This document shows positions 54-47,668 of a stretch of 47,792 nucleotides of DNA, in pieces (the first letter of the stretch is position 1; every line of letters begins with the position of its first letter). The notes under the pieces are model-generated. The model saw only the letters and a list, made by a program, of their open reading frames with translations, did no database searches and had not been told where the DNA came from. The stretch is taken from contig NZ_JAGQED010000031.1 of NCBI RefSeq assembly GCF_018304965.1, positions 1 to 47,792 on the forward strand, in the 5' to 3' direction. The position numbers were made by a program, and so were the translations under genes. The stretch comes from Collimonas antrihumi. GTDB lineage: Bacteria > Pseudomonadota > Gammaproteobacteria > Burkholderiales > Burkholderiaceae_D.

Positions 54-120
54 TGCATGTCTTCGCTCCGCCCCCTGAGCTTTTTAAGAAAAATCAGATG
101 ACGCGACATCTATCCTGACA
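1..120 (-). mobile_element. End of an IS3-like insertion sequence
   Basis: The RHS reading frame on the minus strand reads ...HRGER down to about position 127 and then leaves the family pattern. From about 120 downward a new sequence begins TGTCAGGATAG and is followed by a short leader and the start of a transposase. The 5'-TG end is usual for IS3-family elements. The exact boundary and any target duplication cannot be set because the other end lies outside the window. The element is inserted into an RHS gene remnant and points the same way as it. Confidence 0.55.
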
Positions 121-2788: not shown

Positions 2789-2798
2789 TATGCAATCC

Positions 2799-7646: not shown

Positions 7647-7648
7647 GA

Positions 7649-9969: not shown

Positions 9970-9988
9970 ATCGATGCTCTCTTGCCGA

Positions 9989-10849
9989 TCAGACGTCAAT
10001 CGCAATAATCTTGCGAATCACAAACACGCCCATGAACTCAAAAAAGGCAATCACGCCAAGCGTGGCCCATCCGGTGCGGCTGTGCCACAGCAAGCTCATG
10101 GCTTCCGGTTCCATCTTGTTAAGAATCGCCATCAGCACCATCGGCAACAATCCGACCACCCAGGCTTGCAGTTTTCCTTGTGCGGTAAGGGCGCCGATCT
10201 TGCCTTCCATTTGTAGACGGCTGCGAATGGTGTTTGCTGTGCGCTCCAGCGTCTCGGCCAGGCCGCCGCCGGTTTCATTGGCGATACGCATTGCCGACAC
10301 GACCAGCGTCGTGGTTTGGGTTGGCATACGGCGCGCCAGGTTGTTCAGGCTCTGTTCCAAAGTGACGCCCAGGCGCTGTTCGCGGATCATGAGTGAAAAC
10401 TCCTGCCCCAACGGCGCTTGCGCTTCAGTGACCAGTTGCTGGATCGCAGAAGTCAGGCCGACGCCGGCGCGCATGCCGCCGGATAGCATCATCAAGGCAT
10501 CAGGCAGTTGCTCTTCGAATTTGCGCAGGCGACGCTTGCGCATCCATGCATACAAGGTGCGCGGCAACAATGCCAGTGCAAAGAACACGGGGAGTGCGAT
10601 GACGGCGGTGCCTGTGATGATCCATACCAGTAAGCCGCCAAGCGCCATGACGGCGAGGTTGGCCACGAACAGTTTGGTCGGATCGATGAACAGAAAAAAT
10701 TCCTGCGCCTGGAACTTGGTGCGTTCGGTGAAATTAGCGCGGTAGCGATTCATCGTCACCGTTCCCATGTCGATGATGAACCAGCCCAGCAGTCCTGCCG
10801 ACAGGGCCACTACGACGGTAATGATGGTGAGCATGTTGCTGTTATTCAT
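9989..10849 (-). CDS. tadB: Tad pilus inner-membrane protein TadB
   Basis: The protein has 286 residues of the GspF-like T2SF family. It has an N-terminal transmembrane helix (MLTIITVVVALSAGLLGWFI), two central helices (LFVANLAVMALGGLLVWIITG and the following stretch), the cytoplasmic T2SF domain (FEEQLPDALMMLSGGMRAGVGLTSAI, MRIANETGGGLAETLERTANTIR) and C-terminal helices. TadB partners TadC as the platform of the Flp pilus machine. It starts 12 bp after the TadA stop, in the same operon. Length and domain order are normal for the family. Confidence 0.92.
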   Translation of the reverse strand: MNNSNMLTIITVVVALSAGLLGWFIIDMGTVTMNRYRANFTERTKFQAQEFFLFIDPTKLFVANLAVMALGGLLVWIITGTAVIALPVFFALALLPRTLYAWMRKRRLRKFEEQLPDALMMLSGGMRAGVGLTSAIQQLVTEAQAPLGQEFSLMIREQRLGVTLEQSLNNLARRMPTQTTTLVVSAMRIANETGGGLAETLERTANTIRSRLQMEGKIGALTAQGKLQAWVVGLLPMVLMAILNKMEPEAMSLLWHSRTGWATLGVIAFFEFMGVFVIRKIIAIDV

Positions 10850-10861
10850 GGCTCCGCCCTG

Positions 10862-12715: not shown

Positions 12716-12736
12716 GGTTTCACCTTACTTTTATCT

Positions 12737-15013
12737 CTACTGCGCCGCGATCGGCAACAGCCATTGCGTGGCGACCCAGCCGCGCTTGCCATCGATCTGT
12801 ACCGGTGACCAGTAGCCATTGGGAGCCTGCGGTAAACCTTCGACGATGCTACCGCTTGCCAATTGTTGAATCACCGGCGCATTGACATCGGCGCTAGTCC
12901 TCAGCGCCAGTTGGTTCAAGGTGACGCGATAACGCCTGGCTTCAGTCGCATCATTGTTCTTGGCGTTGGCCGTGAGCGTAGTGGCATTGGCCGGTTTCAG
13001 ATCAGGATTACTTGAGCCGATGATGCTGCCTTGCTGATCAGGCCGGGCAATCGTGCTGGCCGAATAAGAGCGAATTGCCGGTTGCAGCTTCGACGGTTCC
13101 ACCGATGCACTAGCGACCCAACCGTTGACGGCGCCGACGACGACATTGCGCCACTGAGGAAAATCGAGCGGCTGCGGATCGAGGCTGCCCATCTGCACGA
13201 TGGAGCCGCGCCCAAGTTGCAGCAACGTCCTGCTTTGCTGATCAGGCTCGGCATGCACGATCAAGCCGTCCTGCTTGACTTGCAACGAGCTGCCTCCGAC
13301 CTGCAGCGGGTTTTGCCCGGCCGGCACCAGTGCCGCACTGGCGGCAGCTCTGATGCTAGCCGCTTGAGCCGGAACGATTGGCGCAGGTTCTGCCGGCGCC
13401 ATCGCCGGTGCGGCGGATTCATCGCTACCGGTTTCTACGGCAGAAGGATGAACCGGGGCGAGCGAGGGTTGGTTAGTGCGCGCCGGATCGACACCCGGCT
13501 GCAGTGGATCCGTCAAATACGGTTTCTTGCCGAAATTGTCTTCCAGGCGCTGACTCGCACGCTGGACCCGGTCGACCAGTCCGGCCGAGCGGCTGTCGAC
13601 CACGGTGGGAGTAACGAAAACCACCAGTTCGGTCTCATCGTTCTGGAAACGCTTGGAACGGAACAGGGCGCCAAGGATAGGGATATCGCCGAGGAAAGGA
13701 ACCTTGTCGATATTATTGCTGGTCTTGCGTGAAATCAGGCCCGACAGCACCAGTGTTTCGCCGTTTCTGACATTGAATTCGGTATTGGTTTTGCGCGTGC
13801 TGATGGCAGGACCCGCAGTGGTCACGACGGAACCGTCAATGGCGCTGACTTCGCTTTCAATCTTGGCGCGAATCACGCCGTTACGGTCCACTCGCGGTTC
13901 GATGTCGAGCTTGATGCCGTATGGCTTGAACATGACGGTCAGGCCGTTGATGGAGGAGACCGAATACGGATACTCGCCGCCGACCAGAAAACTAGCTTTG
14001 GAGCCGTTACGCGCCGACAATTGCGGCTCCGACAGAACCGTTGCCTGGCCGTTTTGCGCCAACAGATTCAACTGGGCATTGAGACCCAGATTGACCGCGC
14101 TCAACACATTGAGTGCTGACGGCAGCACCACGCCGGTACCGGAGTTACCACCTGGAGCTGTGATCGGCACCGGATTATCCTGGCCTGTTTTTATGTTGAT
14201 CTGATAGGGACCATCGGTACCGCGCCGTGCCGGACTCCAGATGCCGCCGATGATCGCACCGCCGGTGGAGGTCCATTTCAATCCCAGCTCACGCAGTTCG
14301 GTTTTCGGAAACTCGACCACTTTCACATCCATCAGCACCATTTGTTCCCAGCCCAGCTGGTTGGTGAAGTTGACGATCTGCGGATAGCGCTTGGCCAGGT
14401 CGTCGATTTTCTTGATGTCGGCATCGGTCAGGTCGTCGCCCTCGACGATCACCTTGTCGCCGATAATTGAAGCCTTGGTGTTGGGGATGGTTGTCAGGAA
14501 GGCCGCGATCTCGCGCGCAAAGCGGCTGGTGTCGCCCGGCACGATATTGATCTTGACACGCTGGTAGCGGCCATCTTCATTCCAGATAAACAGCGACGAG
14601 GTGCCGGCCGCATTGGCAAACAGGATCACCTCCCGGTTGTCGAGCGCTGCCGCGCTCATGATCTGGCCGTTGCCGACGGCGATGCGGGCGACGCCCGGCG
14701 CCGGGAATACGCGCGACTCGCCTACAAACATTTCGATCTCGGGAATCTGCGCCTGGTCGTCCTGCTTTTTGATCGGGTTATAGGGTTGGCTCAGAGCAAC
14801 AGCTGAGCGTTTGAGGTTGGAGCGATACGTATCTGCGTAGCCATTCTTGGCCGGCAGGTTCACTCCTTTATCGGCGCCGCTTTCAGCGTTGGCAATGTTT
14901 GACGGAGCGCTCTGCGCGTTGGCTGTCATGTCGGCCCCGGCAAAAGCAAGCGCTAGAAAAAGCATCAGCGGCTTGACGGGGAAAAAGGGAGATTGGCTAT
15001 TGTTATTTATCAT
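12737..15013 (-). CDS. cpaC: Tad outer-membrane secretin CpaC/RcpA with two SH3-like C-terminal domains
   Basis: The protein has 758 residues, longer than the usual 450-550 for the family. It has a signal peptide (MLFLALAFAGADMTANAQS), a pilus-type N-terminal secretin domain (EIEMFVGESRVFPAPGVARIAVGN), a BON-like segment (KASIIGDKVIVEGDDL) and the secretin core (VLMDVKVVEFPKTELRELGL, LSEPQLSARNGSKASFLVGG, PFLGDIPILGALFRS). After a Pro/Ala-rich linker come two bacterial SH3-like repeats: about 575-640 (GLIVHAEPDQQSRTLLQLG ... GWVASASV) and about 690-758 (LALRTSADVNAPVIQQLASG ... GWVATQWLL). The secretin forms the outer-membrane pore for the pilus. The SH3 repeats may bind peptidoglycan or partners; this is inference. 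Confidence 0.9.
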   Translation of the reverse strand: MINNNSQSPFFPVKPLMLFLALAFAGADMTANAQSAPSNIANAESGADKGVNLPAKNGYADTYRSNLKRSAVALSQPYNPIKKQDDQAQIPEIEMFVGESRVFPAPGVARIAVGNGQIMSAAALDNREVILFANAAGTSSLFIWNEDGRYQRVKINIVPGDTSRFAREIAAFLTTIPNTKASIIGDKVIVEGDDLTDADIKKIDDLAKRYPQIVNFTNQLGWEQMVLMDVKVVEFPKTELRELGLKWTSTGGAIIGGIWSPARRGTDGPYQINIKTGQDNPVPITAPGGNSGTGVVLPSALNVLSAVNLGLNAQLNLLAQNGQATVLSEPQLSARNGSKASFLVGGEYPYSVSSINGLTVMFKPYGIKLDIEPRVDRNGVIRAKIESEVSAIDGSVVTTAGPAISTRKTNTEFNVRNGETLVLSGLISRKTSNNIDKVPFLGDIPILGALFRSKRFQNDETELVVFVTPTVVDSRSAGLVDRVQRASQRLEDNFGKKPYLTDPLQPGVDPARTNQPSLAPVHPSAVETGSDESAAPAMAPAEPAPIVPAQAASIRAAASAALVPAGQNPLQVGGSSLQVKQDGLIVHAEPDQQSRTLLQLGRGSIVQMGSLDPQPLDFPQWRNVVVGAVNGWVASASVEPSKLQPAIRSYSASTIARPDQQGSIIGSSNPDLKPANATTLTANAKNNDATEARRYRVTLNQLALRTSADVNAPVIQQLASGSIVEGLPQAPNGYWSPVQIDGKRGWVATQWLLPIAAQ

Positions 15014-15086
15014 TGGGGGTCAACTCGTTTTAACTCGCTACTCAGTTCAAATTGCATTCAATCGGCTGCTTTGCTGCGTGCTTGCC

Positions 15087-16094
15087 TTAACGCTGGCCAT
15101 TGCCGGCGTTGTTGATCGCGGCCATCGATGATTGCGCGGGATTTGGAATAACTGCTTGACCTGCCGTGGCCTGCGGGCCAGGCCGGATTTGAGCTGCAGC
15201 AGCGGGACGTGACATGCCGTCGAGCTGCCCGACAGGATTAGCCGCTGGAGTCTGATATTTGCTGAGCAACAGAGCTTCTTCCGGGATTTTGCTGTTGCCG
15301 CCACCGTAAATTACCGGTACCTGATTGTCCGACGGTTCGCGCGTGTTGCCGCCAGTGAGCCCGAGCAACGAAGCGACATCTGCATTGCTGTTGCCGATCG
15401 GCTGCTTGTCTTGCGGATTGCGCAGCAGCGCGGTAATTTTCCCGGCTTCACGCGCGACGATAATGTTTTGCGCCTGCTCGGGCGAAGTCTCGAGAGTGAC
15501 AGTTGAATATTCACGCCGTTCACCGCTCTTCGGATCATCGATCGAGCGTTGACCGGTAGCCATCACCGGAATGCTCTGCAACAGCGGGAATGTAATCTTT
15601 TTCCCCTTTTTGTCGATCGTCGCCATCAAGTCCACCATGTCGCCCGGCTCAAGCATTCCCGAGATCGAATTGATTTCATCGACCGCTACTGTCAATGCCC
15701 TGTGGCCGGGTGCAACCCGCGCCGAAAAAGTGGGGACTCTTTTGGTCTCCATCAGACCCCATATAATCATCTCGCCGGCATTGACGGGGTAAGCCAGAAC
15801 CTGGCCTTCGACGCGATCAAACGCATCCGGCAAAATGGCTTGCGAGTGCGAATACTGCAGCGGCACCGAGCGCACCGCGACATTTTCAGAAGACAGTCTT
15901 TCGCCTTTCTTCAACTCACGTTTGGCCACCACGACGTCGATAGTCTCGCCTTTGCTGCGCGCTTCGATCGCCTCCATCTGGTGCGACAGGAAACTGCGGG
16001 CGGCAAGCGCCGCCAACAGACCGATACTGAGAGCCACGCCGAGAATGATCCAGGTTTTGCCCGGTTTGAATTTTTTAGGTAGGGAAAGCTTCAT
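15087..16094 (-). CDS. cpaB: Tad pilus assembly protein CpaB/RcpC
   Basis: The protein has 335 residues. It has an N-terminal transmembrane helix (WIILGVALSIGLLAALAARSF), a SAF domain (IDVVVAKRELKKGERLSSENVAVRSVP ... VEGQVLAYPVNAGEMI) and the RcpC/CpaB domain (ALTVAVDEINSISGMLEPGDMVDLMATID, TVTLETSPEQAQNIIVAREAGKITALLRNP). The last 80 residues are Pro/Ala/Gln-rich and probably disordered. CpaB is a periplasmic component thought to work with the secretin. It precedes the secretin gene by 73 bp, the normal order in tad loci. Confidence 0.9.
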   Translation of the reverse strand: MKLSLPKKFKPGKTWIILGVALSIGLLAALAARSFLSHQMEAIEARSKGETIDVVVAKRELKKGERLSSENVAVRSVPLQYSHSQAILPDAFDRVEGQVLAYPVNAGEMIIWGLMETKRVPTFSARVAPGHRALTVAVDEINSISGMLEPGDMVDLMATIDKKGKKITFPLLQSIPVMATGQRSIDDPKSGERREYSTVTLETSPEQAQNIIVAREAGKITALLRNPQDKQPIGNSNADVASLLGLTGGNTREPSDNQVPVIYGGGNSKIPEEALLLSKYQTPAANPVGQLDGMSRPAAAAQIRPGPQATAGQAVIPNPAQSSMAAINNAGNGQR

Positions 16095-16108
16095 AAAGTC
16101 AGGTCAAA

Positions 16109-16315
16109 TTAGAGCGGAAGTGAAAGGGAATAGCTGTATTTGTGGTAGGCCACTTTGAAGGCATCAATCAGCTGCCAAAGCACGCTGTTCGAATCGATCA
16201 TGCCGACTCCCAATGCGAAAGCAAGTGCGGCGCAGACGACGGCATATTCAAGCGATGCCTGGCCCGCTTGCCTGTTCAGGCAAGCGCTACCGGTGTAGAT
16301 CTGCGGATTGTTCAT
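16109..16315 (-). CDS. Small Flp-like minor pilin
   Basis: The protein has 68 residues. It contains a prepilin-type site followed by a hydrophobic helix: QAGQASLEYAVVCAALAFALGVGM, with the Glu-Tyr pair at +4/+5 relative to Gly, as in Flp pilins. The short C-terminal part (LIDAFKVAYHKYSYSLSLPL) resembles the tail of Flp subunits. It overlaps the stop of the upstream secreted protein (ATGA) and lies 14 bp before cpaB. It could be a minor pilin or an initiator subunit alongside the main Flp at 20321. The helix contains Cys, which is unusual for the major pilin. Confidence 0.65.
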   Translation of the reverse strand: MNNPQIYTGSACLNRQAGQASLEYAVVCAALAFALGVGMIDSNSVLWQLIDAFKVAYHKYSYSLSLPL

Positions 16316-17103
16316 TTATAGTTCTCCATCTGCGTAACAATGCTGAGCACGATCGATGTGCTGCCGTTGCCGTCGCGTGCAATCGTGGCGACAGCTTCCT
16401 TTCCTTTTCCCTTGAACAGCAAGGTCCTGCCGTTTGTCAGCCGGGCGTGAATGCGGTTCAGCGTTCTGTCATCGGACGTCACCTCGCGGTCGAGTTCCTG
16501 GCCGTCTTTTTCCATGATGTCTTTAAGCGCATTCGCGTTCAATGTTTCGCTGTGGCCGTTGACGATCACCAGCTGCGTATTCAGCTTGCCGCCGTCCTGG
16601 GACGATACCTGGCTGATTATTTTCGACCCGGACGGCAAGCGATTGAGCCATCGCCCGTTGCTGTCCTGCGTTTTTTCCCGACTCTGGACCATGGCTTTCA
16701 CATCGGTCACTGCCGCCAGGCCTTTGCTGCCCTGCCCGGCCGCTTCGATTTGCACCGTCAGGTAGTAATGCCCTTCGGCCCGCCCCAGAATCTGCTTGTT
16801 GCCGAGTGTGTTTTCCACTAACGGCTTGCCCAAGCTCTGGCGAAACCAATCGAGCAATTCAGCCGGCTTTTTCTGCGATACGAAGCCCTGTATCCGCATT
16901 GGCAAACCGTTGGCCGTGAGCTGCTCGCCGATACCGAAAGCATCGGCCGATTTCGGCAGCGCGATACTGGGCCAGACATTCTGTGCCGACGCGTACCCCA
17001 GAAAAAACGTGCAGCCGACCCCTATCATCGCCAGACAAGTGGACACGCGGCGGCACATAGCCAAGGCCGCTTGGCTCCGTCGGCAAAAAGATGTCCGGAT
17101 CAC
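16312..17103 (-). CDS. Secreted protein of unknown function in the tad operon
   Basis: The protein has about 263 residues. GTG at 17103 overlaps the upstream stop as GTGA and follows a TGAGAG site; ATG at 17058 is an alternative start. Either start leaves a signal peptide (VSTCLAMIGVGCTFFLGYASAQN). The body shows no recognised domain. It includes LDWFRQSLGKPL and long beta-rich stretches (KQILGRAEGHYYLTVQIEAA, NTQLVIVNGHSETLN), which suggest a small alpha/beta periplasmic protein. Its place between a TadE-like pseudopilin and the mini-pilin indicates a role in pilus assembly. The function cannot be named. Confidence 0.6.
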   Translation of the reverse strand: MIRTSFCRRSQAALAMCRRVSTCLAMIGVGCTFFLGYASAQNVWPSIALPKSADAFGIGEQLTANGLPMRIQGFVSQKKPAELLDWFRQSLGKPLVENTLGNKQILGRAEGHYYLTVQIEAAGQGSKGLAAVTDVKAMVQSREKTQDSNGRWLNRLPSGSKIISQVSSQDGGKLNTQLVIVNGHSETLNANALKDIMEKDGQELDREVTSDDRTLNRIHARLTNGRTLLFKGKGKEAVATIARDGNGSTSIVLSIVTQMENYK

Positions 17104-17933
17104 CGGGATGCTCTCAGACGATCCGGCGGCACCACGTCTTGCCAAAAATCCAGCTTGCCCAGTTTGGGGCCTTTGGTGATGCCGCCAGGCAGTTCGATCA
17201 CCATCACTACCGGGTCGACGATGACCGACAACGGCGCCAATGCTTTCCCCGGAAAAATTTCAACGTTGCTCAGTTTGTCTTGCACGCTGCCTGGATCGCG
17301 TCCTGACCAGCCATCGATCAAGAGACTTGTGCTGCGGCTCATGCGCAGGTTGATTGCGTCAAATGGCTTGTAGAAGTTCAGGTCGCCTGGCAAGTTGACC
17401 AATGTCACCGAGACATTGGCGCTATAGATGCCGCGATCCTGGAGCGAGAGAGGCCTCTTCAGCAAAAACGGCTGGCCGTCGCTGGCTGACGTAAATCCTC
17501 CGCCGTGATCGCTGTTGTGGTCAGGGCCGAAGCTGACATTGACGTCGCTATCGAAATGCTTGATCAACGGCGCATCCTTCGGATCGCGCCAAAACAGGTT
17601 CTGATTGGCTTTGAAATCGCCGGCGACGTCATTGGTCTTGATGGCGGCATCCGGGTTGCTGAAGAAGCGGCGCCTTACTTCAGCCGCCAGTTGTGCAGCC
17701 GGCTTCCAGCTGCTGACGGCATCATTGCGCGTCATCGCTTCAAAGGCGACATAGCGGCTGGCCAGCTGCGTGCTGTGCGCGATGTCCTGATACTTGGCGA
17801 TCATCGGCACCAACAGGAACAGCGGCAACAGCGCCACCGAGATCACCAGGAATTCGGTCAGGGCCTGGCCTTTCGAATCGGCAAGACCGGACTTACGCAA
17901 AGCTGGGCTGGCTATGCGCGGCGCGAATTTCAC
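17100..17933 (-). CDS. TadE-like pseudopilin
   Basis: The protein has 277 residues. The N-terminus carries a TadE-type prepilin motif (KGQALTEFLVISVALLPLFLL VPMIAKYQDIAH): Gly at the cleavage site, Glu at +5 and a long hydrophobic helix. The remaining 230 residues are periplasmic and poorly conserved. TadE/TadF-type pseudopilins are processed by the Tad prepilin peptidase and are needed for pilus assembly. Its start overlaps the stop of the upstream gene (ATGA at 17930-17933) and its stop overlaps the next start, indicating translational coupling. Confidence 0.75.
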   Translation of the reverse strand: MKFAPRIASPALRKSGLADSKGQALTEFLVISVALLPLFLLVPMIAKYQDIAHSTQLASRYVAFEAMTRNDAVSSWKPAAQLAAEVRRRFFSNPDAAIKTNDVAGDFKANQNLFWRDPKDAPLIKHFDSDVNVSFGPDHNSDHGGGFTSASDGQPFLLKRPLSLQDRGIYSANVSVTLVNLPGDLNFYKPFDAINLRMSRSTSLLIDGWSGRDPGSVQDKLSNVEIFPGKALAPLSVIVDPVVMVIELPGGITKGPKLGKLDFWQDVVPPDRLRASR

Positions 17934-18847
17934 GGCTTGCCTCCCGGCTGCGTGACCTGGAAGCCGCCAGCCAGGTGCGGTGCGAACACGTTCTCACCGA
18001 CTCTTACGTCCTGCGCTGCCTGTTTGGCAGTCATGGAGATTCCTTTGGCAGAGCTGCGCTCCAGCACCAGTTTGGCGGCTGGCGTAAAGCTGCCGCCGTT
18101 GGCGACGCACATGGTATCGCCGAGCAGTCTTTCGGGTTGGCACGAGATGCCCAGAATGTTCTTGGACGGCCCGGATGCAGCAGGCATGGCTGCCTCCATT
18201 TGCGTGATGACGCTGGCAGGAATGGCCGGATTGCGCTTGAGTTGCGCGATCACATCGGCCGGATTTTTTCCTTGCGACGGCCGGGCGTTGCGGTGAACAT
18301 CCATCGCACATTGGCCGCGTGCTGTTTTGGCGACCAGGTCGATCTGGCACATGCCGGCAGATGATTTCAGGGTGGCGGTAGTCCATAAGCCACGCGACCT
18401 GGAATGGGATTTGGCTGCCAGGGCCGGACCGTCGGCTACGCTGCAGTCTTCCGGATTCAATATATAAATCCAGGCGGCGCTATAGGTGATGGCAAAATTC
18501 CTGGTGGCGTAGAAATCTTCGCGGAAGCCATTCAGGTGCTCGGGCCATTCAGTCGGCAAGTTGACCGGCAGGTTTGCTTCGCGCTTGGTGGCGGCGCAAC
18601 TGGCGACATCGCGCTTAAGTTGCTCCAGGCGTACTGCATTATCTGGGTCGCCTTGTAGAGCGCCCTGCAAACGTGCATAGTGAACCAGCACTTCCTTGCC
18701 ACCTTTGCCGCTTTCGTGCGGCATGGGCGCGTTCAGTATTTCGCGTTCCAGTCCGGTCTCGGCATACACAGGAGCAGATAGCAATGCGGCCGTGGATGCC
18801 GTTACGGCGAAAAGATGGCGGGAGAGACGTGCGACAGCTGATTTCAT
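17930..18847 (-). CDS. Secreted protein of unknown function in the tad operon
   Basis: The protein has 305 residues with a clear signal peptide (HLFAVTASTAALLSAPVYAETG). The mature part contains five Cys (including VASCAATKRE, GMCQIDL, ISCQPERLLG and TMCVANGG), which suggests periplasmic disulfides, and a C-terminal segment ending FAPHLAGGFQVTQPGGKP. I do not recognise a domain. It is coupled at both ends by ATGA overlaps, between the TadG-like gene and the TadE-like gene, so a structural or regulatory role in the Tad machine is likely. It is probably restricted to this type of tad locus. Confidence 0.6.
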   Translation of the reverse strand: MKSAVARLSRHLFAVTASTAALLSAPVYAETGLEREILNAPMPHESGKGGKEVLVHYARLQGALQGDPDNAVRLEQLKRDVASCAATKREANLPVNLPTEWPEHLNGFREDFYATRNFAITYSAAWIYILNPEDCSVADGPALAAKSHSRSRGLWTTATLKSSAGMCQIDLVAKTARGQCAMDVHRNARPSQGKNPADVIAQLKRNPAIPASVITQMEAAMPAASGPSKNILGISCQPERLLGDTMCVANGGSFTPAAKLVLERSSAKGISMTAKQAAQDVRVGENVFAPHLAGGFQVTQPGGKP

Positions 18848-20286
18848 GGTGGTAGAACCGTTCCTTGGAGTGATTGGGCAACAGCCTTGATGTCATCCGG
18901 CACTTCAATCAGATGAACTTGCCAATAAGGGTTAAACAGGCTCGCCAGCTCGGTTTTGCCGTCGGCGCGAGGCACCGGCCGCGAAAAGAACACCTCTGAC
19001 GCGGAGACGCTGGCGTAGTATCCGCCGGCCGGTGTGCCCTGGTAATTGTTCAAATGTGCCGATGGCTTGACCGCCGAACGTGCATCGGAGGTAGCGGTCT
19101 GGTCGGACTGGCGCCGGAGCCGGATGGCGAATCGGACCTTGGGATCCTGCTTGCTCTTGTCTGCGTTGTCCGGGGTGTAGGCAAGCGCCTTGTCGGACAG
19201 CTCGAAGAAGCCGGGCAGGCCGGTGTAGTTCCAGTCGTTGCTGGAAGCCCTCGACGCCGCTTGAGAATTTTCCCTGCCGCTGGTGACTGTGCCGCCGCCT
19301 CCCGATGAATCGCCGTCGTTTGCGCTTTGCTTGCCGTAGCCGAGCGCTCCCTCATCAGTTCGGCATCTTTTGATCCACCGTCCTTTCGGGCGATACCTGT
19401 AAATCGACGCCGTATCCAGTGCCCGCCATTCGTCGTAGCCGATGAGTTCTGTGCCACCCGCACGATTGACATAGTCGAAGTGTGGAAGTGGATCCCAACA
19501 GGTTGGTATCAGTGCATTGCTGCGCCAATGACGAGATGGAACAAAACTGTCCAGGTTAGCTGACGCTTTCGTTACCTGGGCAAACCGCTCGCGCTGATCC
19601 CCACTGTAGCGCTGCATGATCGGCGAGCCGTCAAACGCAAAGAAGGTATCGAGCAATGGCACCACATCAACCTGGACCTCGCCGTCATTCAGGTAGTTGG
19701 CGTTCGCCACCTGCTGCATCACGTCTTTGCGGGCAACCGGCAAGGTCGCCAGCATGGTGACCTGGGATGCCTGCAATATCGCTTTGGCGGCGTCCGATGC
19801 GACCACCATCGCTTCAGCGGCGACCTGCACCGCTTCGCTGACAATTTCCACAGTGCCGATGACGTTGGCGTAATACAAACCGGAGCACACCGGGATATAC
19901 AAGGTCATGGCCTTGGCAACCGGCTCTGAATAATAGGTTTCGCAGCCCAGCTGGGCGGTGCTCTCAGCGTGGGTCTTGGTGTACTGGGCCCATGAGGAGA
20001 GGCTGACCATTTGTGCAATGGTCACCTCGTTGGCCACCATCGCCCGATTGGTATAGGCGATATAGTTCAGCGCGCGTGCGTGCATCACCCCGGCGCTGTA
20101 GGCAACAGCGTCGGAGGTATTGACGAGCTTGGTTTTCTCGCGGGAAAGCTGACCGGTGTTAAAAAGGAAGAAAAGCGCGGCCAAGCCAGCTACCAGGACA
20201 AAAATCCCGTAGATGAGCGCTTGGCCCTGCTGAAATCGCCTCCCCTTGAACGCTGGCCAGCTTCGGCGAAAGCTGGCGCGTGGCAT
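18844..20286 (-). CDS. tadG: TadG-like pilus assembly protein
   Basis: The protein has 480 residues. The N-terminus has the Tad/TadG helix (QGQALIYGIFVLVAGLAALFF LFNTGQLSREKTKLVNTSDAVAYSAG), the form seen in the Flp pilus-assembly TadE/G-like family, with the characteristic NxSDAAAYSA-type sequence just after the membrane segment. The large periplasmic part is rich in Ala, Ser and Thr, with a Gly/Ser-rich low-complexity stretch (DGDSSGGGGTVTSG). It lies 35 bp downstream of the Flp pilin stop. No von Willebrand A domain motif is evident, unlike classical TadG. Confidence 0.75.
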   Translation of the reverse strand: MPRASFRRSWPAFKGRRFQQGQALIYGIFVLVAGLAALFFLFNTGQLSREKTKLVNTSDAVAYSAGVMHARALNYIAYTNRAMVANEVTIAQMVSLSSWAQYTKTHAESTAQLGCETYYSEPVAKAMTLYIPVCSGLYYANVIGTVEIVSEAVQVAAEAMVVASDAAKAILQASQVTMLATLPVARKDVMQQVANANYLNDGEVQVDVVPLLDTFFAFDGSPIMQRYSGDQRERFAQVTKASANLDSFVPSRHWRSNALIPTCWDPLPHFDYVNRAGGTELIGYDEWRALDTASIYRYRPKGRWIKRCRTDEGALGYGKQSANDGDSSGGGGTVTSGRENSQAASRASSNDWNYTGLPGFFELSDKALAYTPDNADKSKQDPKVRFAIRLRRQSDQTATSDARSAVKPSAHLNNYQGTPAGGYYASVSASEVFFSRPVPRADGKTELASLFNPYWQVHLIEVPDDIKAVAQSLQGTVLPP

Positions 20287-41098: not shown

Positions 41099-41395
41099 AT
41101 GCTTGAAATAAAACAAACCGAGACTTTCCGAAAATGGCGAATCCAGCTAAAGGATGAGAAGGTACGAGGTTTGATAGCATCCCGCTTAGACCGCTTGGTC
41201 TTCGGGCATGCTGGTGACGTGGAGCCCGTTGGACAAGGGATCAGCGAGATGCGCATCCATTACGGCCCTGGATACCGCATCTACTTCCATAAACGAGGTG
41301 GCACGATCATCGTTTTACTTTGCGGCGGCGATAAGGGTACACAAGCAAAAGACATCAAGACGGCAAAGCTTCTTGCTGCTGAATGGAGTGAATGA
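41099..41395 (+). CDS. RelE/ParE-type toxin of a toxin-antitoxin pair
   Basis: The protein has 98 residues. It follows the HI1419-like addiction-module toxin pattern (EIKQTETFRKWRIQLKDEKVRGLIASRLDRLVFGHAGDVEPVGQGISEMRIHYGPGYRIYFHKRG). RelE-type toxins cleave mRNA at the ribosome. The toxin comes first and the antitoxin second, the reverse of most relBE loci but normal for HigBA-type pairs. It is separated from the antitoxin by 1 bp. Confidence 0.85.
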   Translation: MLEIKQTETFRKWRIQLKDEKVRGLIASRLDRLVFGHAGDVEPVGQGISEMRIHYGPGYRIYFHKRGGTIIVLLCGGDKGTQAKDIKTAKLLAAEWSE

Positions 41396-41396
41396 A

Positions 41397-41687
41397 ATGA
41401 CCAAAGAAAAACTGACAAGCTACGATCCTGCCGAAGATTTGGCTTCTAGCGAAGCAATCGCGGCTTTCATGGCAGCAGCATTCGAGACGAGCGATGTCGG
41501 TTATATAGCGCATGCGCTAGGTGTTGTCGCTCGTGCGAAGGGCATGGCGGAAATCGCGGGACAGACCGGCCTTTCCCGCGAACAGCTTTATCGCTCTTTC
41601 AGCGAGAACGGCAACCCGACCTTAAAAACCACTCTTGCCGTGATGAAGGCGCTTGGCATTGATCTGACCGCCAAGGTTCACGCCTGA
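41397..41687 (+). CDS. Helix-turn-helix antitoxin of the addiction module
   Basis: The protein has 96 residues of the HI1420-like antidote family (SYDPAEDLASSEAIAAFMAAAFETSDVGYIAHALGVVARAKGMAEIAGQTGLSREQLYRSFSENGNPTLKTTLAVMKALGIDL). The HTH is clear (MAEIAGQTGLSREQLYR). It would bind the toxin and the palindrome at 40984-41019. Confidence 0.88.
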   Translation: MTKEKLTSYDPAEDLASSEAIAAFMAAAFETSDVGYIAHALGVVARAKGMAEIAGQTGLSREQLYRSFSENGNPTLKTTLAVMKALGIDLTAKVHA

Positions 41688-41935: not shown

Positions 41936-42116
41936 ATTTGAGCACCAAATCAGGCGCCGAGTCGTCGTCACTCATCAACCTATTGTGGCAGGCGGTGTAA
42001 CCGCATTAAAGCTGCGGCCAATTTGCGTTTTTTACATAGCATTCCGTCATGCTCAACGTATCGTCAAGAGGCACCATAAAAATGAAGCCAGCCACCTCAA
42101 CTTGCGAGTCCCTGCC

Positions 42117-42677
42117 ATGCGTCGCTACAAACGGCTGTTGATCGTTGTTCTGTTTCTGGCGGCGCTGCTCGCCTTATTTCAATTTTCAGGACTTAGAGAA
42201 CATTTCAATTTGGCGTTTCTTCATCAACAGATCGTCGACAATAAAGTCAGCGGTTTGGTGATCTTCGTCCTACTGTTTTGCCTGGGTAATCTGATTCAGA
42301 TACCCGGCTGGATATTTCTCGCGGCGGCGGTACTGGCCCTGGGAAAGATCTGGGGTGGTTTGGCGACCTATATCGCGGCAGTCATCTCCTGTGCATTTAC
42401 TTTTTTAACAATACGCTTCATCGGCGGCGATGCAATGCGAGAATTGAAAAACCGATATGCGTTGCAAATCCTCCATGGCCTGGATGCGCATCCCATTAAA
42501 AGCATTGCATTGTTAAGAGTATTGTTTCAGACCGTTCCTGCCCTGAATTACGCGCTGGCTTTGTCCGGCGTGAAGTTTTATAAATATCTGATTGGCACCA
42601 TGCTCGGCTTGCCATTGCCGATCATGTTGTATTGCCTGTTTTTTGATTATATTGGCAAGGTGCTGCATGTGTATTGA
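42117..42677 (+). CDS. TVP38/TMEM64 (VTT-domain) membrane protein
   Basis: The protein has 186 residues. Hydrophobic segments include LLIVVLFLAALLALFQFSG, GLVIFVLLFCLGNLIQIPGWIFLAAAVLALG, ATYIAAVISCAFTFLTIRFIGG, LRVLFQTVPALNYALALSGVKFYKYLIGTMLGLPL. This is the VTT (DedA-like) pattern. The start at 42117 (MRRYKRLL) is chosen because the upstream 44 codons look non-coding; no good ribosome site is seen. VTT proteins act in lipid scrambling or export in some systems; the role here is unknown. It opens the segment between the two long repeats. Confidence 0.75.
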   Translation: MRRYKRLLIVVLFLAALLALFQFSGLREHFNLAFLHQQIVDNKVSGLVIFVLLFCLGNLIQIPGWIFLAAAVLALGKIWGGLATYIAAVISCAFTFLTIRFIGGDAMRELKNRYALQILHGLDAHPIKSIALLRVLFQTVPALNYALALSGVKFYKYLIGTMLGLPLPIMLYCLFFDYIGKVLHVY

Positions 42678-42707: not shown

Positions 42708-42941
42708 ATGGCGCTGGCAGCCGCCCCAAAAACTGTCACGCTCGACGTCAAAAACATGACCTGCGAACTGTGCCCAATTACTGTCAAAAAATCGCTGGAT
42801 AAGATGTCCGGTGTGAGGTCCGTCAAGGTTGATTTCAACAAGAAGACAGCGGTCGTTACCTATGACCCTGACAAAGCTCGAACGGAGGCATTGACCAAGG
42901 CCACCACGAACGCAGGCTATCCGTCCACTTTGCACAAGTGA
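42708..42941 (+). CDS. merP: MerP-like heavy-metal-binding protein lacking a signal peptide
   Basis: The protein has 77 residues from ATG at 42708. The HMA domain is clear: VTLDVKNMTCELCPITVKKSLDKMSGVRSVKVDFNKKTAVVTYDPDK, with metal-binding Cys in the MTCELC motif. Mature MerP sequences share CPITVKK, LTKAT and NAGYPS. The usual MerP signal peptide is absent; only ALAAAP remains before the mature domain, so the gene seems 5'-truncated. A TTG at 42684 does not restore it. It could act in the cytosol or be non-functional. Confidence 0.75.
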   Translation: MALAAAPKTVTLDVKNMTCELCPITVKKSLDKMSGVRSVKVDFNKKTAVVTYDPDKARTEALTKATTNAGYPSTLHK

Positions 42942-42947
42942 CGTGCC

Positions 42948-43163
42948 ATGCCCAACGCTATCGTCCTTGAATCTGTTCTGACTTGCCCGCAATGCGGCTT
43001 TGCCAAGCTGGAGAGCATGCCTACCGACGCTTGCCAGTACTATTACGAGTGTAGTAACTGCAAGGCGCTGCTGCGGCCTAATCCAGGTGATTGCTGTGTG
43101 TTTTGTTCGTTCGGCTCGGTAAAATGTCCGCCGATTCAAGCGCAGCACGGATGCTGCAAATAG
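42948..43163 (+). CDS. GDCC-motif Cys-rich protein of mercury-type loci
   Basis: The protein has 71 residues. It has four Cys pairs: CPQCGF, CSNCKALLRPNPGDCCVFCSFGSVKCPPI and a C-terminal CCK. The GDCCVFCSFG...CPPIQ segment is typical of a small protein family found in mercury-resistance loci. It is probably a zinc-ribbon-like metal-binding protein. It follows the MerP-like gene by 6 bp and may be co-translated. Confidence 0.78.
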   Translation: MPNAIVLESVLTCPQCGFAKLESMPTDACQYYYECSNCKALLRPNPGDCCVFCSFGSVKCPPIQAQHGCCK

Positions 43164-43201: not shown

Positions 43202-43858
43202 TCATTCCTGGGGCGTTACCCGTGCAAACAGCCGTTGCCCGTATCTTTTGCTGAGGGCCAAGAACAGGGCCGTCACGCCGAAGTTCGACATCAGAATCAT
43301 GATCGTTGCATCAAGCGGATGGAACAAGGACAAGGCGCTCGCCGTCATCGCGGCGACCGCAAGACTGCCCGTCATCACAACCGGCGTCGGAGATAATCGC
43401 GCCACGTAGCGCAACATGATGAGCATCGTCAGCGATAGAGGGATCGCTGTTAGCACCAACGTTGCGAAGCAGCGTGCAGTCTCTCCAAGAGACATACCTT
43501 CCGGACCGATACTGACCCAGTTAGTCAAACATCCATAGCCAATCGTAGAAATCCATACCGCCAGCGCAGGCATCGGCAATAGCAGCCAGCGCCGGGACAG
43601 TCCCGGAATACTTGCAATAAACGATGCTATTGCGGCGAGAACAGCAGTCACTAGAGCTGCAGCGACACCGGTAATAAAAACAGGCTGATGCAGCTTGAGC
43701 ATCAGATCTGGCCGAACACCATGTCCGACGGCAACTAACGCCAGCATCAATGCCGCAAACAATAACCAGCACGCAGCACGTACCACTGGCGACCGCAAGC
43801 GTCGCACCGGCTTGACATCTGTGACTAACGAGTCGATGAGATTGGCGGTCGGTTTCAT
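43202..43858 (-). CDS. nrsF: NrsF-like anti-sigma factor (DUF1109)
   Basis: The protein has 218 residues and about six transmembrane helices (AACWLLFAALMLALVAVGHG, FITGVAAALVTAVLAAIASFIAS, WLLLPMPALAVWISTIGYGC, ATLVLTAIPLSLTMLIMLRY, VVMTGSLAVAAMTASALSLF, MILMSNFGVTALFLAL). The N-terminus (TANLIDSLVTDVKPVRRLRSP) matches the DUF1109/NrsF sigma-binding segment. It binds and restrains the cognate ECF sigma factor; conserved membrane Cys sense metal stress in known examples, and here Cys at GYGCLTNW and ARCFATL could do so. Its start overlaps the end of the sigma gene by 4 bp. Confidence 0.85.
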   Translation of the reverse strand: MKPTANLIDSLVTDVKPVRRLRSPVVRAACWLLFAALMLALVAVGHGVRPDLMLKLHQPVFITGVAAALVTAVLAAIASFIASIPGLSRRWLLLPMPALAVWISTIGYGCLTNWVSIGPEGMSLGETARCFATLVLTAIPLSLTMLIMLRYVARLSPTPVVMTGSLAVAAMTASALSLFHPLDATIMILMSNFGVTALFLALSKRYGQRLFARVTPQE

Positions 43859-44514
43859 GTGTTGCCACCTCGTTTGCCGATCATCTTGCGCAGGCTCTTC
43901 AAGGCACGATGGGTCGCGGTTTTCAGCGCAGCGACCGACATGCCGCTAGACGCGGCAGCTTCCTTCAATGACATTTCTTCCAATTTCAGCATTTGTATTG
44001 CATCTCGTTGTCCAGCTGGCAGGCGCGCGACGGCCGCGCGCAACATGCTGGCATCTGTTGCCTCTTCCTGGAGATTCGCTTCAGAGGCCGATAAGGTTTC
44101 ATAATCCTGATCGAGCGGTGCTTCGTGTGCATTATGGCGCCCCTGCCGTCGCAGACTGTCAATGATGCGCCGGCTGGCGATAGCAACCAGCCAAGGGCCG
44201 AACGGGCGAGTCGGATCGTACGTGTGCCGCACTGTATGTATGGTCAACAGAATATCTTGCACCGCATCTTCGGCATCGCTGCGATTGCCAATGCGGCGTA
44301 TGGCAAGCACCCGCAAATAAGGCGTAATCTCTTCGAGCAGGCGTCGGTAAGCCTCACCGTCGCCCTCCTGTGCTCGAGCCATATAGATGGACCAGTCGAG
44401 AGTGCCATCGGTGCGGGTATCAGGTGCTGCGGAAGAATTGTCCCGCGCGCCCGAATCCTGAGAACTCTGTACGAGACTCAGTGACGGGCCGGGGCGGCGT
44501 GTTTCGGATGACAT
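43855..44514 (-). CDS. ECF sigma factor of the SigF/NrsF type
   Basis: The protein has 219 residues. ATG at 44514 opens MSSETRRPG; a longer frame to 44760 overlaps the divergent precursor gene and is unlikely. Region 2 is visible as IYMARAQEGDGEAYRRLLEEITPYLRVLAIRRIGNRSDAEDAVQDILLTIHTVRHTYDPTRPFGPWLVAIASRRIIDSLRR. Region 4 is RLPAGQRDAIQMLKLEEMSLKEAAASSGMSVAALKTATHRALKSLR. Its partner is the NrsF-like protein. It is divergent from the bufferin precursor gene, whose promoter matches the SigF consensus. Confidence 0.9.
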   Translation of the reverse strand: MSSETRRPGPSLSLVQSSQDSGARDNSSAAPDTRTDGTLDWSIYMARAQEGDGEAYRRLLEEITPYLRVLAIRRIGNRSDAEDAVQDILLTIHTVRHTYDPTRPFGPWLVAIASRRIIDSLRRQGRHNAHEAPLDQDYETLSASEANLQEEATDASMLRAAVARLPAGQRDAIQMLKLEEMSLKEAAASSGMSVAALKTATHRALKSLRKMIGKRGGNT

Positions 44515-44572: not shown

Positions 44573-44598
44573 GTAACCTTTGGGGGACTCCAGACGAA
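44573..44598 (+). promoter_or_regulatory. SigF-type promoter of the bufferin operon
   Basis: GTAACC at 44573-44578 and CGAA at 44595-44598 are exactly 16 bp apart. This equals the GTAACC-N16-CGAA promoter reported for Caulobacter SigF. It lies 50 bp before the precursor start. The ECF sigma factor encoded divergently would recognise it. Confidence 0.7.
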
Positions 44599-44648
44599 TT
44601 TATCAGCAAGGCCGCGATTCTGCGGTCTCAACCTGAGGAGAATGCAAA

Positions 44649-44966
44649 ATGAGCAAACAAGCATGGGCAGCTTCGACGCTGTCCGCCGCAATCGGTCTCG
44701 CACTCGCAATGCAAGCGCCGGTACAGGCCCAGAATATGAAGGACATGAGCGCCATGCCACAGCCCGTCAAGGACAATATGGCGAGAATGGCAAAAAACAA
44801 GCTGGAGAAATGTTACAGCATCAATACGGTCGCGAAGAACGACTGTGCTGAAGGTGCGCATTCTTGTGCTGGTCAGGCTACACAGGCACGCGATCCGAAG
44901 TCCTTCGTGTTGCTGCCGGCCGGCGATTGTTCCAAGATTCAAGGTGGCAAGTTGCAGGCAAGCTGA
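44649..44966 (+). CDS. bufA: Bufferin precursor (DUF2282, BufA1-like)
   Basis: The protein has 105 residues. AGGAG precedes the ATG. It has a signal peptide (AASTLSAAIGLALAMQAPVQAQ) and a mature part with four Cys: 55 (EKCYSINTV), 66 (KNDCAEGAHSC), 73 and 94 (PAGDCSKIQ). The pattern Cys-Y...NDCA-GAHSCAG...GDC matches DUF2282, the precursors of bufferins: RiPPs that bind copper after the MNIO enzyme converts core Cys to thiooxazoles. Unlike most RiPPs, the leader is a Sec signal peptide. The modifying genes follow directly. Confidence 0.88.
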   Translation: MSKQAWAASTLSAAIGLALAMQAPVQAQNMKDMSAMPQPVKDNMARMAKNKLEKCYSINTVAKNDCAEGAHSCAGQATQARDPKSFVLLPAGDCSKIQGGKLQAS

Positions 44967-44980
44967 GCAAGCATCACAGT

Positions 44981-45871
44981 ATGAACGCTATTGTTGCCAA
45001 GATGCAGGATATGTCCAGCCCGATCCCCGCGAAAGCGGGAGTCGGACTGCGCTTTCGACATCATCAAGCCGTTATCGACTCGTCTCCCGATGTCGCCTGG
45101 TTCGAGGTGCACACCGAAAATTACATGGGTGGTGGTACAGCACCACAATACCTGGACAAGATTCGTTGCGACTATCCGATTTCTCTGCATGGCGTCGGTT
45201 TGTCGCTCGGCAGTGCTGACGGACTTGACGTAGCGCACCTGGCCCGCCTACGGAGCGTGGCCGACCGGATTGAGCCCGGATTGATTTCCGAACACTTGTC
45301 TTGGAGCGCCGTCGGCGGCACGTATCTGGCTGACCTGTTGCCGCTGCCGATGACCGAAGAAGCATTGCATATTGTTTGCCGGCATGTCGACCAGGTGCAG
45401 GCTCACCTCAAGCGGCGCATCCTGATCGAAAATCCTTCGACCTACCTGCGTTTTCATCACTCAACGATTCCAGAGTGGGAATTCCTCGCACAAGTCGCCC
45501 AGCGTACCGGCTGCGGAATTCTGTGTGATGTCAACAACATCTACGTCAGCGCCAGCAATCACGGCTGGGACGCGATGACCTATCTCTATGCTTTGCCGCC
45601 GGCAGCGATCGGCGAAATCCATCTGGCCGGCCATAGCATCCGGCAACTCGGGAACGGACAAACGTTACGTATCGACGACCACGGCTCCCGCGTGGCGCCT
45701 GCCGTCTGGGCGCTCTATCGGGAGGCGCTTAAACGTTTCGGGCCGGTTCCCACCTTGATTGAATGGGATACCGACGTGCCAGCGCTTGAAATATTGATGG
45801 AAGAAGCCGCAGTCGCCGAGGCTGCTCTCGAGAAACAACGACAGGAGTCCATCCATGCCAACGTTACTTGA
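44981..45871 (+). CDS. bufB: MNIO-family (DUF692) peptide-modifying iron oxygenase
   Basis: The protein has 296 residues of the DUF692 multinuclear non-heme iron oxidase family, a TIM-barrel enzyme like MbnB and TglH. Metal and active-site motifs are visible: FEVHTENYMG, ISLHGVGLSLG, LISEHLSW, ILIENPSTYL, ILCDVNNIYVSASNHG, EIHLAGH, IDDHGSRV and LIEWDTDVP. It should modify the Cys of the precursor encoded 14 bp upstream. ATG at 44981 is chosen because the longer frame enters the precursor gene. The last 17 bp overlap the next gene. Confidence 0.9.
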   Translation: MNAIVAKMQDMSSPIPAKAGVGLRFRHHQAVIDSSPDVAWFEVHTENYMGGGTAPQYLDKIRCDYPISLHGVGLSLGSADGLDVAHLARLRSVADRIEPGLISEHLSWSAVGGTYLADLLPLPMTEEALHIVCRHVDQVQAHLKRRILIENPSTYLRFHHSTIPEWEFLAQVAQRTGCGILCDVNNIYVSASNHGWDAMTYLYALPPAAIGEIHLAGHSIRQLGNGQTLRIDDHGSRVAPAVWALYREALKRFGPVPTLIEWDTDVPALEILMEEAAVAEAALEKQRQESIHANVT

Positions 45872-46658
45872 ACTGCAACGCACGATTGAGCAAAGCATGC
45901 TGCACCACCTGGATGGCGACCTGTCTGCCTATGTGATCGCCGACGGCTTGGACGGTGGTGCGCGTCTCGGCATTTACCGCAATACCTGTACCAGTGTGCT
46001 TGCAACGGCACTGACCCTGTCTTTCCCGGCCGTCCGCTATCTGGTGGGCGCGGAATTCTTTGAAGGTGCTGCGCGCTTGTTCGCCGCCGAAGCCCCTCCA
46101 CACAGTGCATTGCTAGATGAATATGGCGCTGATTTTCCTGAATTCCTGGCACAGCTTCCCCAAGCCGTATCGTTACCCTATCTCGCCGATGTGGCCCGCC
46201 TTGAATGGCAAGTGAATATTGTGCTGCACGCAGCAGACGCGCAGCCGCTCGATGTAGCCCGGCTTGTACAATTAGATGAAGCTGAGCTGGCGCATTGGCG
46301 GTTTGCACCCCACCCTGCGGCAAAATTGCTGCGCTGCGATTTTCCTGCGGACGCTATCTGGCATGCAGTACTGGAGCGCGACGATAGTGCCATGACGGCA
46401 ATCGATCTCGCAGACGGCCCGGTTTGGCTGCTGGTTCAGCGAGTGGAGAGCGGTGTCGCCTTGGTGCGCCTGAGTGAGTGTCAGTGGCGTTTTACAGCGG
46501 TGCTATTTTCCGGGCAACCATTGCACGCGGCGTTGGAGGACGCCCCTTGTGCCGATGCGCAAGCCGTGCTGGCCGCGCACCTGAGACGCGGATGCTTTAT
46601 AAACATCGGCCTGACAGACACAGCGTCGAAACTCTCGTTCAGGAGGATTCGTTCATGA
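45855..46658 (+). CDS. bufC: DUF2063 partner protein of the MNIO enzyme
   Basis: The protein has 267 residues. The DUF2063 N-terminal helical domain is clear (LLELQRTIEQSMLH, RLGIYRNTCTSVLATALTLSFPAVRYLVGAEFFEGAARLFAAEAPPHSALLDEYGADFPEFLA, YLADVARLEWQVNIVLHAADAQPL). It is predicted to recruit the precursor to the DUF692 enzyme. It overlaps bufB by 17 bp and its stop overlaps the next start (ATGA). Confidence 0.88.
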   Translation: MPTLLELQRTIEQSMLHHLDGDLSAYVIADGLDGGARLGIYRNTCTSVLATALTLSFPAVRYLVGAEFFEGAARLFAAEAPPHSALLDEYGADFPEFLAQLPQAVSLPYLADVARLEWQVNIVLHAADAQPLDVARLVQLDEAELAHWRFAPHPAAKLLRCDFPADAIWHAVLERDDSAMTAIDLADGPVWLLVQRVESGVALVRLSECQWRFTAVLFSGQPLHAALEDAPCADAQAVLAAHLRRGCFINIGLTDTASKLSFRRIRS

Positions 46659-47134
46659 CACTCATATCGCAATCGGCTACGCCGCCGAACCTAAATGACA
46701 AGCGCCTGGTACGTCTTGTCCAATGGTTCGAGCGTGTGCCTTATACGTTCCTCGCCATTCCTCTACGGATCGCGGTTGCCACGATATTCTGGAACTCAGC
46801 AATGACCAAGCTCGCGAACTGGGAGACTGCCCTCGAACTGTTCGTGGAAGAATACAAGTTGCCCCTCCTGCCGCCGGAACTCGCGGCCTACATGGCGGTA
46901 TCGATCGAATTGACTGCACCGGTGCTGCTAGTGCTGGGATTGGCGACTCGCCCCGTAGCGCTGCTACTGTTGGGCATGACGACGGTCATCGAGATATTTG
47001 TCTATCCGTTAGCGTGGCCCACCCATATCCAGTGGGCTGCGATGCTGCTGGTGCTGCTATGCCGCGGTGCCGGAAGCTGGTCCTTTGATCATTTACTGTG
47101 GGAGCGATGGATGGATCGCCATAACCAAATCTGA
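46655..47134 (+). CDS. DoxX family membrane protein of the bufferin operon
   Basis: The protein has 159 residues with four transmembrane helices (FLAIPLRIAVATIFWNSAM, AYMAVSIELTAPVLLVLGLATRPVALLLLGMTTVIEIF, WAAMLLVLLCRGAGSW). It matches the DoxX pattern (RIAVATIFWNSAMTKLANWE). AGGAGG precedes the ATG at 46655, which overlaps the bufC stop. DoxX genes commonly end bufferin and related MNIO operons; the role may be in the redox or membrane step. Its stop codon shares bases with the start of the right repeat. Confidence 0.87.
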   Translation: MTLISQSATPPNLNDKRLVRLVQWFERVPYTFLAIPLRIAVATIFWNSAMTKLANWETALELFVEEYKLPLLPPELAAYMAVSIELTAPVLLVLGLATRPVALLLLGMTTVIEIFVYPLAWPTHIQWAAMLLVLLCRGAGSWSFDHLLWERWMDRHNQI

Positions 47135-47263: not shown

Positions 47264-47358
47264 ATCCAACCTGTCGCACCAGCTCCCGGAGGCGCTCTCT
47301 GGCCAGTCGCAATTTGCCAGCGGATCGTCTGTGTTCATAAACGCAAAATGAGCCTCGT

Positions 47359-47668
47359 ATGTCAAAGATCGAAACGGAACTCATCCAGTTACGTGCAGAA
47401 AATGACATGCTCAAGAGGCCCCTTTCCACGCACGGCATTGCAATTCCAAAACATGTGACCACCGCAGATTCCGTTGGCCCCGCCACTCGTCCCATTGCCA
47501 GCTCGCTCCCCAGACGCAAAAATCAAGCTGTTCCGCCGGCTCTATCAGGGAAGGAACGAGGTCTATCCTGTCCGATGGGAAAGCCAGAAAACTGGCAAAA
47601 CTGGGTACTCACCAGTCTGTGCAAACGAGTGGCGGTACGGCGTTTGTGACAAGCCACGGATAAAGGTA
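47359..47668 (+). pseudogene. TOTE-type primase domain fragment, frameshifted
   Basis: The first frame opens MSKIETELIQLRAENDMLK RPLSTHGIA from 47359. A second frame continues from about 47500: SPDAKIKLFRRLYQGRNEVYPVRWESQKTGKTGYSPVCANEWRYGVCDKPRIK. This is the typical N-terminal part of the archaeo-eukaryotic primase of TOTE conflict systems. The two parts are out of frame near 47500, so a single-base change has broken the gene. It is cut at about 47669, after CDKPRIK. A complete gene would exceed 900 codons. Confidence 0.6.

Follow-up and report, generated by a model that had tools for sequence, protein, structure and literature searches.

What does a compact gene cassette at 44573-47134 of a Collimonas antrihumi contig do, and does the company of mercury-type genes beside it bear on its function? 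The cassette lies in a stretch of 47,792 nucleotides (the window). A first-pass annotation had described it as a bufferin-type copper cassette for a ribosomally synthesised and post-translationally modified peptide (RiPP), with overlapping or tightly spaced genes for a four-Cys DUF2282 precursor, a DUF692 (MNIO) oxygenase, a DUF2063 partner and a DoxX protein. All four genes are found at the places given for them, as judged from profile matches and coordinates (Table 1), and the cassette belongs to a known kind, the gig-type Buf1 bufferin clusters, but to another subtype than gig of Cupriavidus metallidurans. What is new, to judge from sequence comparison, is the subtype, which is marked by an anti-sigma factor with a Cys-Cys-His (CCH) pattern, a promoter on one side only and, in Burkholderiales, the frequent company of GDCCVxC (GDCC) and mer genes.

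The cassette as a gig-type Buf1 bufferin cluster

Family models back the bufferin assignment, as do the gene order, the promoter and the fold; gene content and order, the promoter sequence, the conserved residues and the predicted fold of BufC are all seen directly. The bufB and bufC genes overlap by 17 bases and bufC and doxX by 4 bases. The cassette's bufB accounts for the one PF05114 match in its own genome, and the closest BufB proteins among 80 loci fetched are those of Herbaspirillum sp. RV1423 (93%) and Collimonas sp. OK242 (87%). The divergent sigF-nrsF pair, spanning 43202-44514 on the minus strand, holds the most distinctive feature of the locus and went unmentioned in the first-pass annotation, which had begun its feature at 44573, the first base of the promoter. 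All six buf, sigF and nrsF frames are open, and family models cover most of their length; the sigF profile matches run on a longer frame from 44760, the start given in Table 1 being an ATG of our choice.

That the precursor has four Cys is borne out by a PF10048 match above the cut-off and by Cys residues at positions 55, 66, 73 and 94. The full set is retained by 47 of 47 precursors in the alignment (those of at least 60 residues, with one locus, L033 and L139, counted twice). The N-terminus of BufA shows, by eye, a Lys, a hydrophobic stretch and an AxA-like site, as in a Sec-type signal peptide. The predicted mature protein would begin with five Met in 18 residues (MKDMSAMPQPVKDNMARM), against two Met in the corresponding part of the gig BufA of Cupriavidus metallidurans, and this Met-rich start may add copper ligands. 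BufB aligned with the solved DUF692 structure 3bww (E 1.4e-35), and its iron-ligand motifs look intact by comparison with MbnB and TglH. A BufC model predicted from 62 sequences (pLDDT 93) matched TglI (8hci/8hi7; E 9.2e-07 and 1.5e-06) and NGO1945 (3dee; E 8.8e-04), with TM-scores of about 0.5, and, weakly, the RRE protein TbiB1 (5v1u; E 1.9). By this model BufC carries the TglI/NGO1945 fold, TglI being an MNIO partner; a PDB sequence search with bufC and bufA found no relative. In Herbaspirillum sp. RV1423 (L032:1700-1960) the bufA frame lacks the signal-peptide part, as if the cassette had been cut upstream, and tblastn found no sigF-nrsF near that cassette.

In gene content and order the locus matches Caulobacter CC3252-CC3257 (PMC3511200, excerpt) and published Buf1 clusters (PMC12452194, excerpt). 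It shares with the Caulobacter type the four Cys, the MNIO-DUF2063-DoxX series, the divergent sigF-nrsF pair and GTAACC-N16-CGAA at bufA. Unlike that type, it has a His in NrsF for the second sensor Cys, plus one more Cys, and no GTAACC promoter on the sigF side. The operon plan, with its divergent sigma/anti-sigma pair, is also that of gigPABT-rpoQ-rsqA of C. metallidurans, the transcription of which is induced by copper and gold (PMC10304878, excerpt). Over the aligned parts, the buf proteins share 35-55% identity with their gig counterparts, the sigma factor 39% and the anti-sigma factor 32%; unlike the window, C. metallidurans has GTAACC elements that face both ways, and its gig BufA has another core, AGAGTTCAG. 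The Oxazolin/captophorin EGKCG clusters (HvfABC; PMC13097082, excerpt) are alike in having an MNIO with a DUF2063-type partner, thiooxazole chemistry and a link to copper, but their precursor is of another family, and the window's bufC and doxX fall under the HvfC and HvfX cut-offs (for doxX, 55.2 bits against the NF050144 cut-off of 80).

Very probably, then, this gig-type Buf1 operon is controlled by SigF/NrsF and makes a periplasmic copper buffer that is modified by BufB/BufC and exported by Sec. The chemistry, the disulfide, export, copper binding and induction are carried over from published homologues. By analogy with these, the membrane protein NrsF would release SigF under metal stress, and SigF would transcribe bufA-bufB-bufC-doxX from the GTAACC-N16-CGAA promoter. 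In the cytoplasm BufB, an iron-dependent MNIO, would act with BufC, its recognition partner, to oxidise the central Cys66 and Cys73 of BufA, probably to thiooxazoles; the peptide would be exported by Sec, retaining the outer disulfide Cys55-Cys94, and would bind surplus copper in the periplasm. Copper buffering is the most likely function on the evidence of these homologues. Some points weigh against it. The copper chemistry comes from homologues, and those of C. metallidurans are 46% (BufB) and 35% (BufA) identical over the aligned parts; the signal peptide of BufA was judged by eye alone; and the inducing metal is not readable from the sequence. Because NrsF is a variant, the inducer known from Caulobacter or C. 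metallidurans cannot safely be assumed here, and the inducers shown in the excerpted text of the Caulobacter sigma-F paper are chromium and cadmium (PMC3511200).

A variant anti-sigma factor

Two Cys residues of Caulobacter NrsF, Cys131 and Cys181, matter for repression and are probably periplasmic (PMC3511200, excerpt). Of this conserved pair, whose members stand 50 residues apart, the window NrsF has only the first. The alignment comprised 34 distinct NrsF sequences from the clade to which the window protein belongs and 29 of the other type, nine of the latter from loci in hand and 20 hand-picked from matches. The first sensor Cys (Cys130 in the window) is kept in 33 of the 34 clade members and in 29/29 of the other type. 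At the second position (His180 in the window) His is found in 34/34 of the clade and Cys in 28/29 of the other type, the sole departure being a Glu (L200); this column sits in an ungapped neighbourhood. An additional Cys (Cys110) is present in 33/34 of the clade where the others mostly have Val, Ile, Ala, Ser or Thr, the pairing of this column being unsure because identity between the two types is low and the alignment has gaps around Cys110. The clade member without both Cys (L050) appears frame-shifted. The same C, C, H pattern is found in the plasmid NrsF proteins of Rhizobium sp. T136 and Nitrobacter hamburgensis; the anti-sigma factor of C. metallidurans is of the Cys-Cys type. Since both of its Cys have already been mutated in Caulobacter, the Cys-to-His swap in NrsF offers a natural, ready test of metal sensing and specificity. 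In Nitrobacter, a gene for a TlpA-type thiol-disulfide protein (L203:7660-8262) overlaps the end of the CCH-type nrsF.

A promoter on the bufA side only

The Caulobacter sigma-F consensus, GTAACC-N16-CGAA (PMC3511200, excerpt), has a single exact match in the window, the one ahead of bufA. The stretch between sigF and bufA was scanned with a looser form, GTAAC[CG]-N15..17-CG[AT], in the 35 loci, the window among them, whose SigF reaches 55% identity or more (L006 and L033 being the same locus). A GTAACC-type site was found on the bufA side in 35/35 and on the sigF side in 0/35. Three loci of the Cys-Cys type (L144, L145, L146) have two such sites facing away from each other; L147 has one, and L148 none that could be paired. 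Rhizobium sp. T136, with its CCH-type NrsF, has another gene order and no GTAACC-type site near bufA. Use of the motif to define a sigma-F regulon was abandoned: GTAACC-N15/16-CGA gave 47 hits in the own genome against 119 for a reversed control, and the motif alone is therefore not informative genome-wide. The one non-buf hit inspected (GTAACCTTT start; C77) lies inside a long frame resembling a TonB receptor.

Table 1. Features of the buf locus and its mer-GDCC neighbour (window coordinates).
Feature	Position	Strand	Evidence
Sigma-F-type promoter GTAACC-N16-CGAA, upstream of bufA	44573..44598	+	Exact match to Caulobacter consensus (PMC3511200, excerpt)
bufA, Buf1 (DUF2282) precursor, 105 residues	44649..44966	+	PF10048, 70.4 bits (cut-off 22.4)
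bufB, MNIO (DUF692) bufferin maturase	44981..45871	+	NF050167 MNIO_BufB, 385.8 bits (cut-off 310); PF05114, 352.5 bits
bufC, DUF2063 partner with RRE-like part	45855..46658	+	PF09836, 69.3 bits (cut-off 27.2)
doxX, DoxX-family membrane protein	46655..47134	+	PF07681, 62.3 bits (cut-off 23.6)
sigF, extracytoplasmic function (ECF) sigma factor, divergent from bufA	43855..44514	-	Sigma70_r2 and r4_2 above cut-off
nrsF, anti-sigma factor, CCH variant (Cys110, Cys130, His180)	43202..43858	-	PF06532, 95.1 bits; alignment
GDCCVxC Cys-rich protein, 71 residues, convergent with nrsF	42948..43163	+	NF041374, 103.8 bits (cut-off 40)
merP-like gene, mature HMA domain only	42708..42941	+	TIGR02052, 98.5 bits, profile positions 19-91 of 92

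GDCC genes near buf clusters of relatives

The first-pass annotation had also listed MerP and GDCC genes, which are indeed present nearby by profile match, and had proposed that they might extend the metal range beyond copper. Across relatives, the association recurs well above chance. Thirty-six genomes, from the first 37 of the 80 loci, were chosen by BufB similarity alone, and in 18 of them a full GDCC gene stands no more than 3 kb from bufB. Of their 38 GDCC copies above the cut-off, 20 are bufB-linked, where 0.03 would be expected from the density elsewhere (places were matched by hand, and with Paraburkholderia and allies dominating these related genomes, Poisson values are not read as probabilities). 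Proximity of GDCC to bufB is, in this related set of genomes, far commoner than chance would give. In the flanks of the 80 fetched loci, tblastn matched GDCC in 20, counting the L037 fragment. These 20 all belong to the first 37 loci; the other 43, some of whose flanks are shortened by contig ends, gave no match. MerP matches were found in 10/80, one more at 29% not being counted; in L060 a GDCC gene stands just beyond the fetched flank.

At least four arrangements occur. GDCC is convergent with nrsF in the window and in L033, L057, L058, L061 and L063; it follows nrsF on the same strand in L034, L035, L038, L066 and L067; it follows doxX on the same strand in 9/80 (L039, L046, L047, L051, L053, L054, L057, L058, L062), with gaps of 15-93 bases in the six measured; and it is convergent with doxX in L048 and, as the fragment, in L037. 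L065 has GDCC and no sigF or nrsF match. By NCBI annotation, a Paraburkholderia phenoliruptrix plasmid carries bufABC-doxX-GDCCVxC, and a plasmid of Burkholderia contaminans (L202) carries bufABC-doxX-thioredoxin-merR-merT-merP-GDCCVxC. The Nitrobacter and Rhizobium stretches gave no GDCC match. A Stenotrophomonas plasmid (L208:725-8848) carries DUF2282-DUF692-DUF2063-DoxX and, 4 kb off, a lone DUF2282 gene that is divergent from sigF-nrsF and near merR-merT-merP and a GDCC gene.

Evenly drawn samples gave weaker linkage. By hand count from the listed places, with the own genome excluded, GDCC and buf lie within 10 kb of each other in 3/21 genomes having both in the family sample (G007, G295, G312) and in 3/29 in the order sample (G054, G057, G071). 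Near four of these six linked cases (G312, G054, G057, G071) no match to this NrsF was found, so linkage extends beyond the CCH type. Among the 23 NrsF genes of the family sample that lie within 10 kb of a BufB match listed (the weakest matches fall outside the list), GDCC is near 3/5 of the CCH type and 0/18 of the others, or 2/4 and 0/18 without the window. The types were set by score, with the sequence read for all five of the CCH type and for 12 of the others; the 18 include one fragment. We also considered, and rejected, a single buf-specific GDCC clade: a tree of 72 columns needs four changes for the doxX-following genes, at least three of them forced by starred branches (three changes could also be one gain plus two losses). 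A GDCC model (pLDDT 85) gave no PDB match at E <=0.001, the best being 0.93.

The merP-GDCC pair of the window

The window MerP matches its profile from position 19 of 92 onward. A signal peptide is present on the MerP of most relatives and absent from the window protein if translation begins at the ATG (42708); beginning at a TTG (42684) instead would lengthen the protein by eight residues and give it a very short hydrophobic start. On this reading, the window MerP has likely lost export. The pair keeps the order of the merR-merT-merP-GDCCVxC module, the two genes being 6 bases apart, but unlike the module it has no merR or merT recognised beside it. A MerT search of the own genome gave no match, nor did control genomes. 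Collimonas OK242 has merR, merT, merP and GDCC in that order, and several relatives have merT upstream of merP; in the window, merP is directly preceded by a gene for a VTT-domain membrane protein (41985-42677, plus strand). A VTT-domain gene 95% identical to this one directly precedes GDCC in a further genome of the genus (L140), with no MerP match. At L038:3783-4103 (minus strand), a MerP domain without its own signal is fused in frame to an apparent MerT start, and the junction (MALAAAPKT) resembles that of the window, perhaps reflecting a related deletion.

The window's merP-GDCC pair is thus most likely a decayed mercury module outside the operon, to judge from its sequence: merT and merR are not adjacent, the export signal of MerP is apparently lost, and no sigma-F-like site precedes the pair, which converges on nrsF. 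A metal range extending beyond copper is possible for the subtype and weakly supported for the window strain.

Passengers or partners

On balance we lean towards regarding the GDCC and mer genes as passengers with no functional link to buf: a mobile merR-merT-merP-GDCC element would insert near buf within metal-resistance islands and then decay. This fits the losses suffered by the window copy and the scatter of buf-adjacent GDCC genes over more than one clade. A plasmid merR-merP-GDCC set adjoins a Tn3-family transposase, and on a Stenotrophomonas plasmid 3 kb separate merR-merT-merP-GDCC from a sigF-nrsF-DUF2282 set. What passengers would not predict is that GDCC should stand so closely behind doxX, with no MerP match nearby, in several lineages, nor that merT-merP-GDCC should follow nrsF without an intervening merR (L034).

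An alternative is that the subtype is tuned to softer metals (Hg, Au, Ag) besides or instead of copper; the CCH NrsF would then sense another metal, and GDCCVxC, together with MerT-MerP where these are present, would be a working partner handing on thiol-bound metal. The linkage in the BufB-chosen genomes, its varied arrangements, the annotated plasmid case and the contrast between CCH-type and other NrsF-bearing clusters in the one sample speak for such tuning, and MerC-bufferin fusions have been published (PMC12452194, excerpt). We nevertheless consider it unlikely. The state of the window MerP, which has neither merT nor merR beside it, the similar loss in L038 and the lack of a sigma-F-like site before the pair argue against it, as do the evenly drawn samples; and because mercury modules are mobile, their clustering with buf may reflect shared islands. 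Equally doubtful, in our estimate, is the broader proposal of a distinct subtype reaching from Burkholderiales to Rhizobium/Nitrobacter plasmids, with Cys-Cys-His sensing, repeated GDCCVxC recruitment (in Burkholderiales) and defence against soft metals (Cu/Hg/Au) instead of copper only. GDCCVxC is a candidate accessory of bufferin systems, a role that we did not find described in the open-licence literature and that would link bufferins to mercury modules beyond a few MerC fusions.

That the buf cassette is itself decayed or silent within a degrading island, as the truncated mer neighbour and the short open frames alone listed between doxX and the window end might suggest, is highly improbable given six open frames, models matched over most of their length and an intact promoter.

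Other features of the window

Short frames 3' of doxX (47350-47450), near the window end, resemble by eye the remnant of an insertion sequence (IS) element. On the minus strand, also by eye, 94-7652 encodes long proteins with YD-type repeats, Rhs-like in appearance, and 7649-20286 holds a gene run resembling a Tad/Flp pilus cluster. A small gene pair at 41099-41687 (plus strand) resembles a HigBA-like toxin-antitoxin module.

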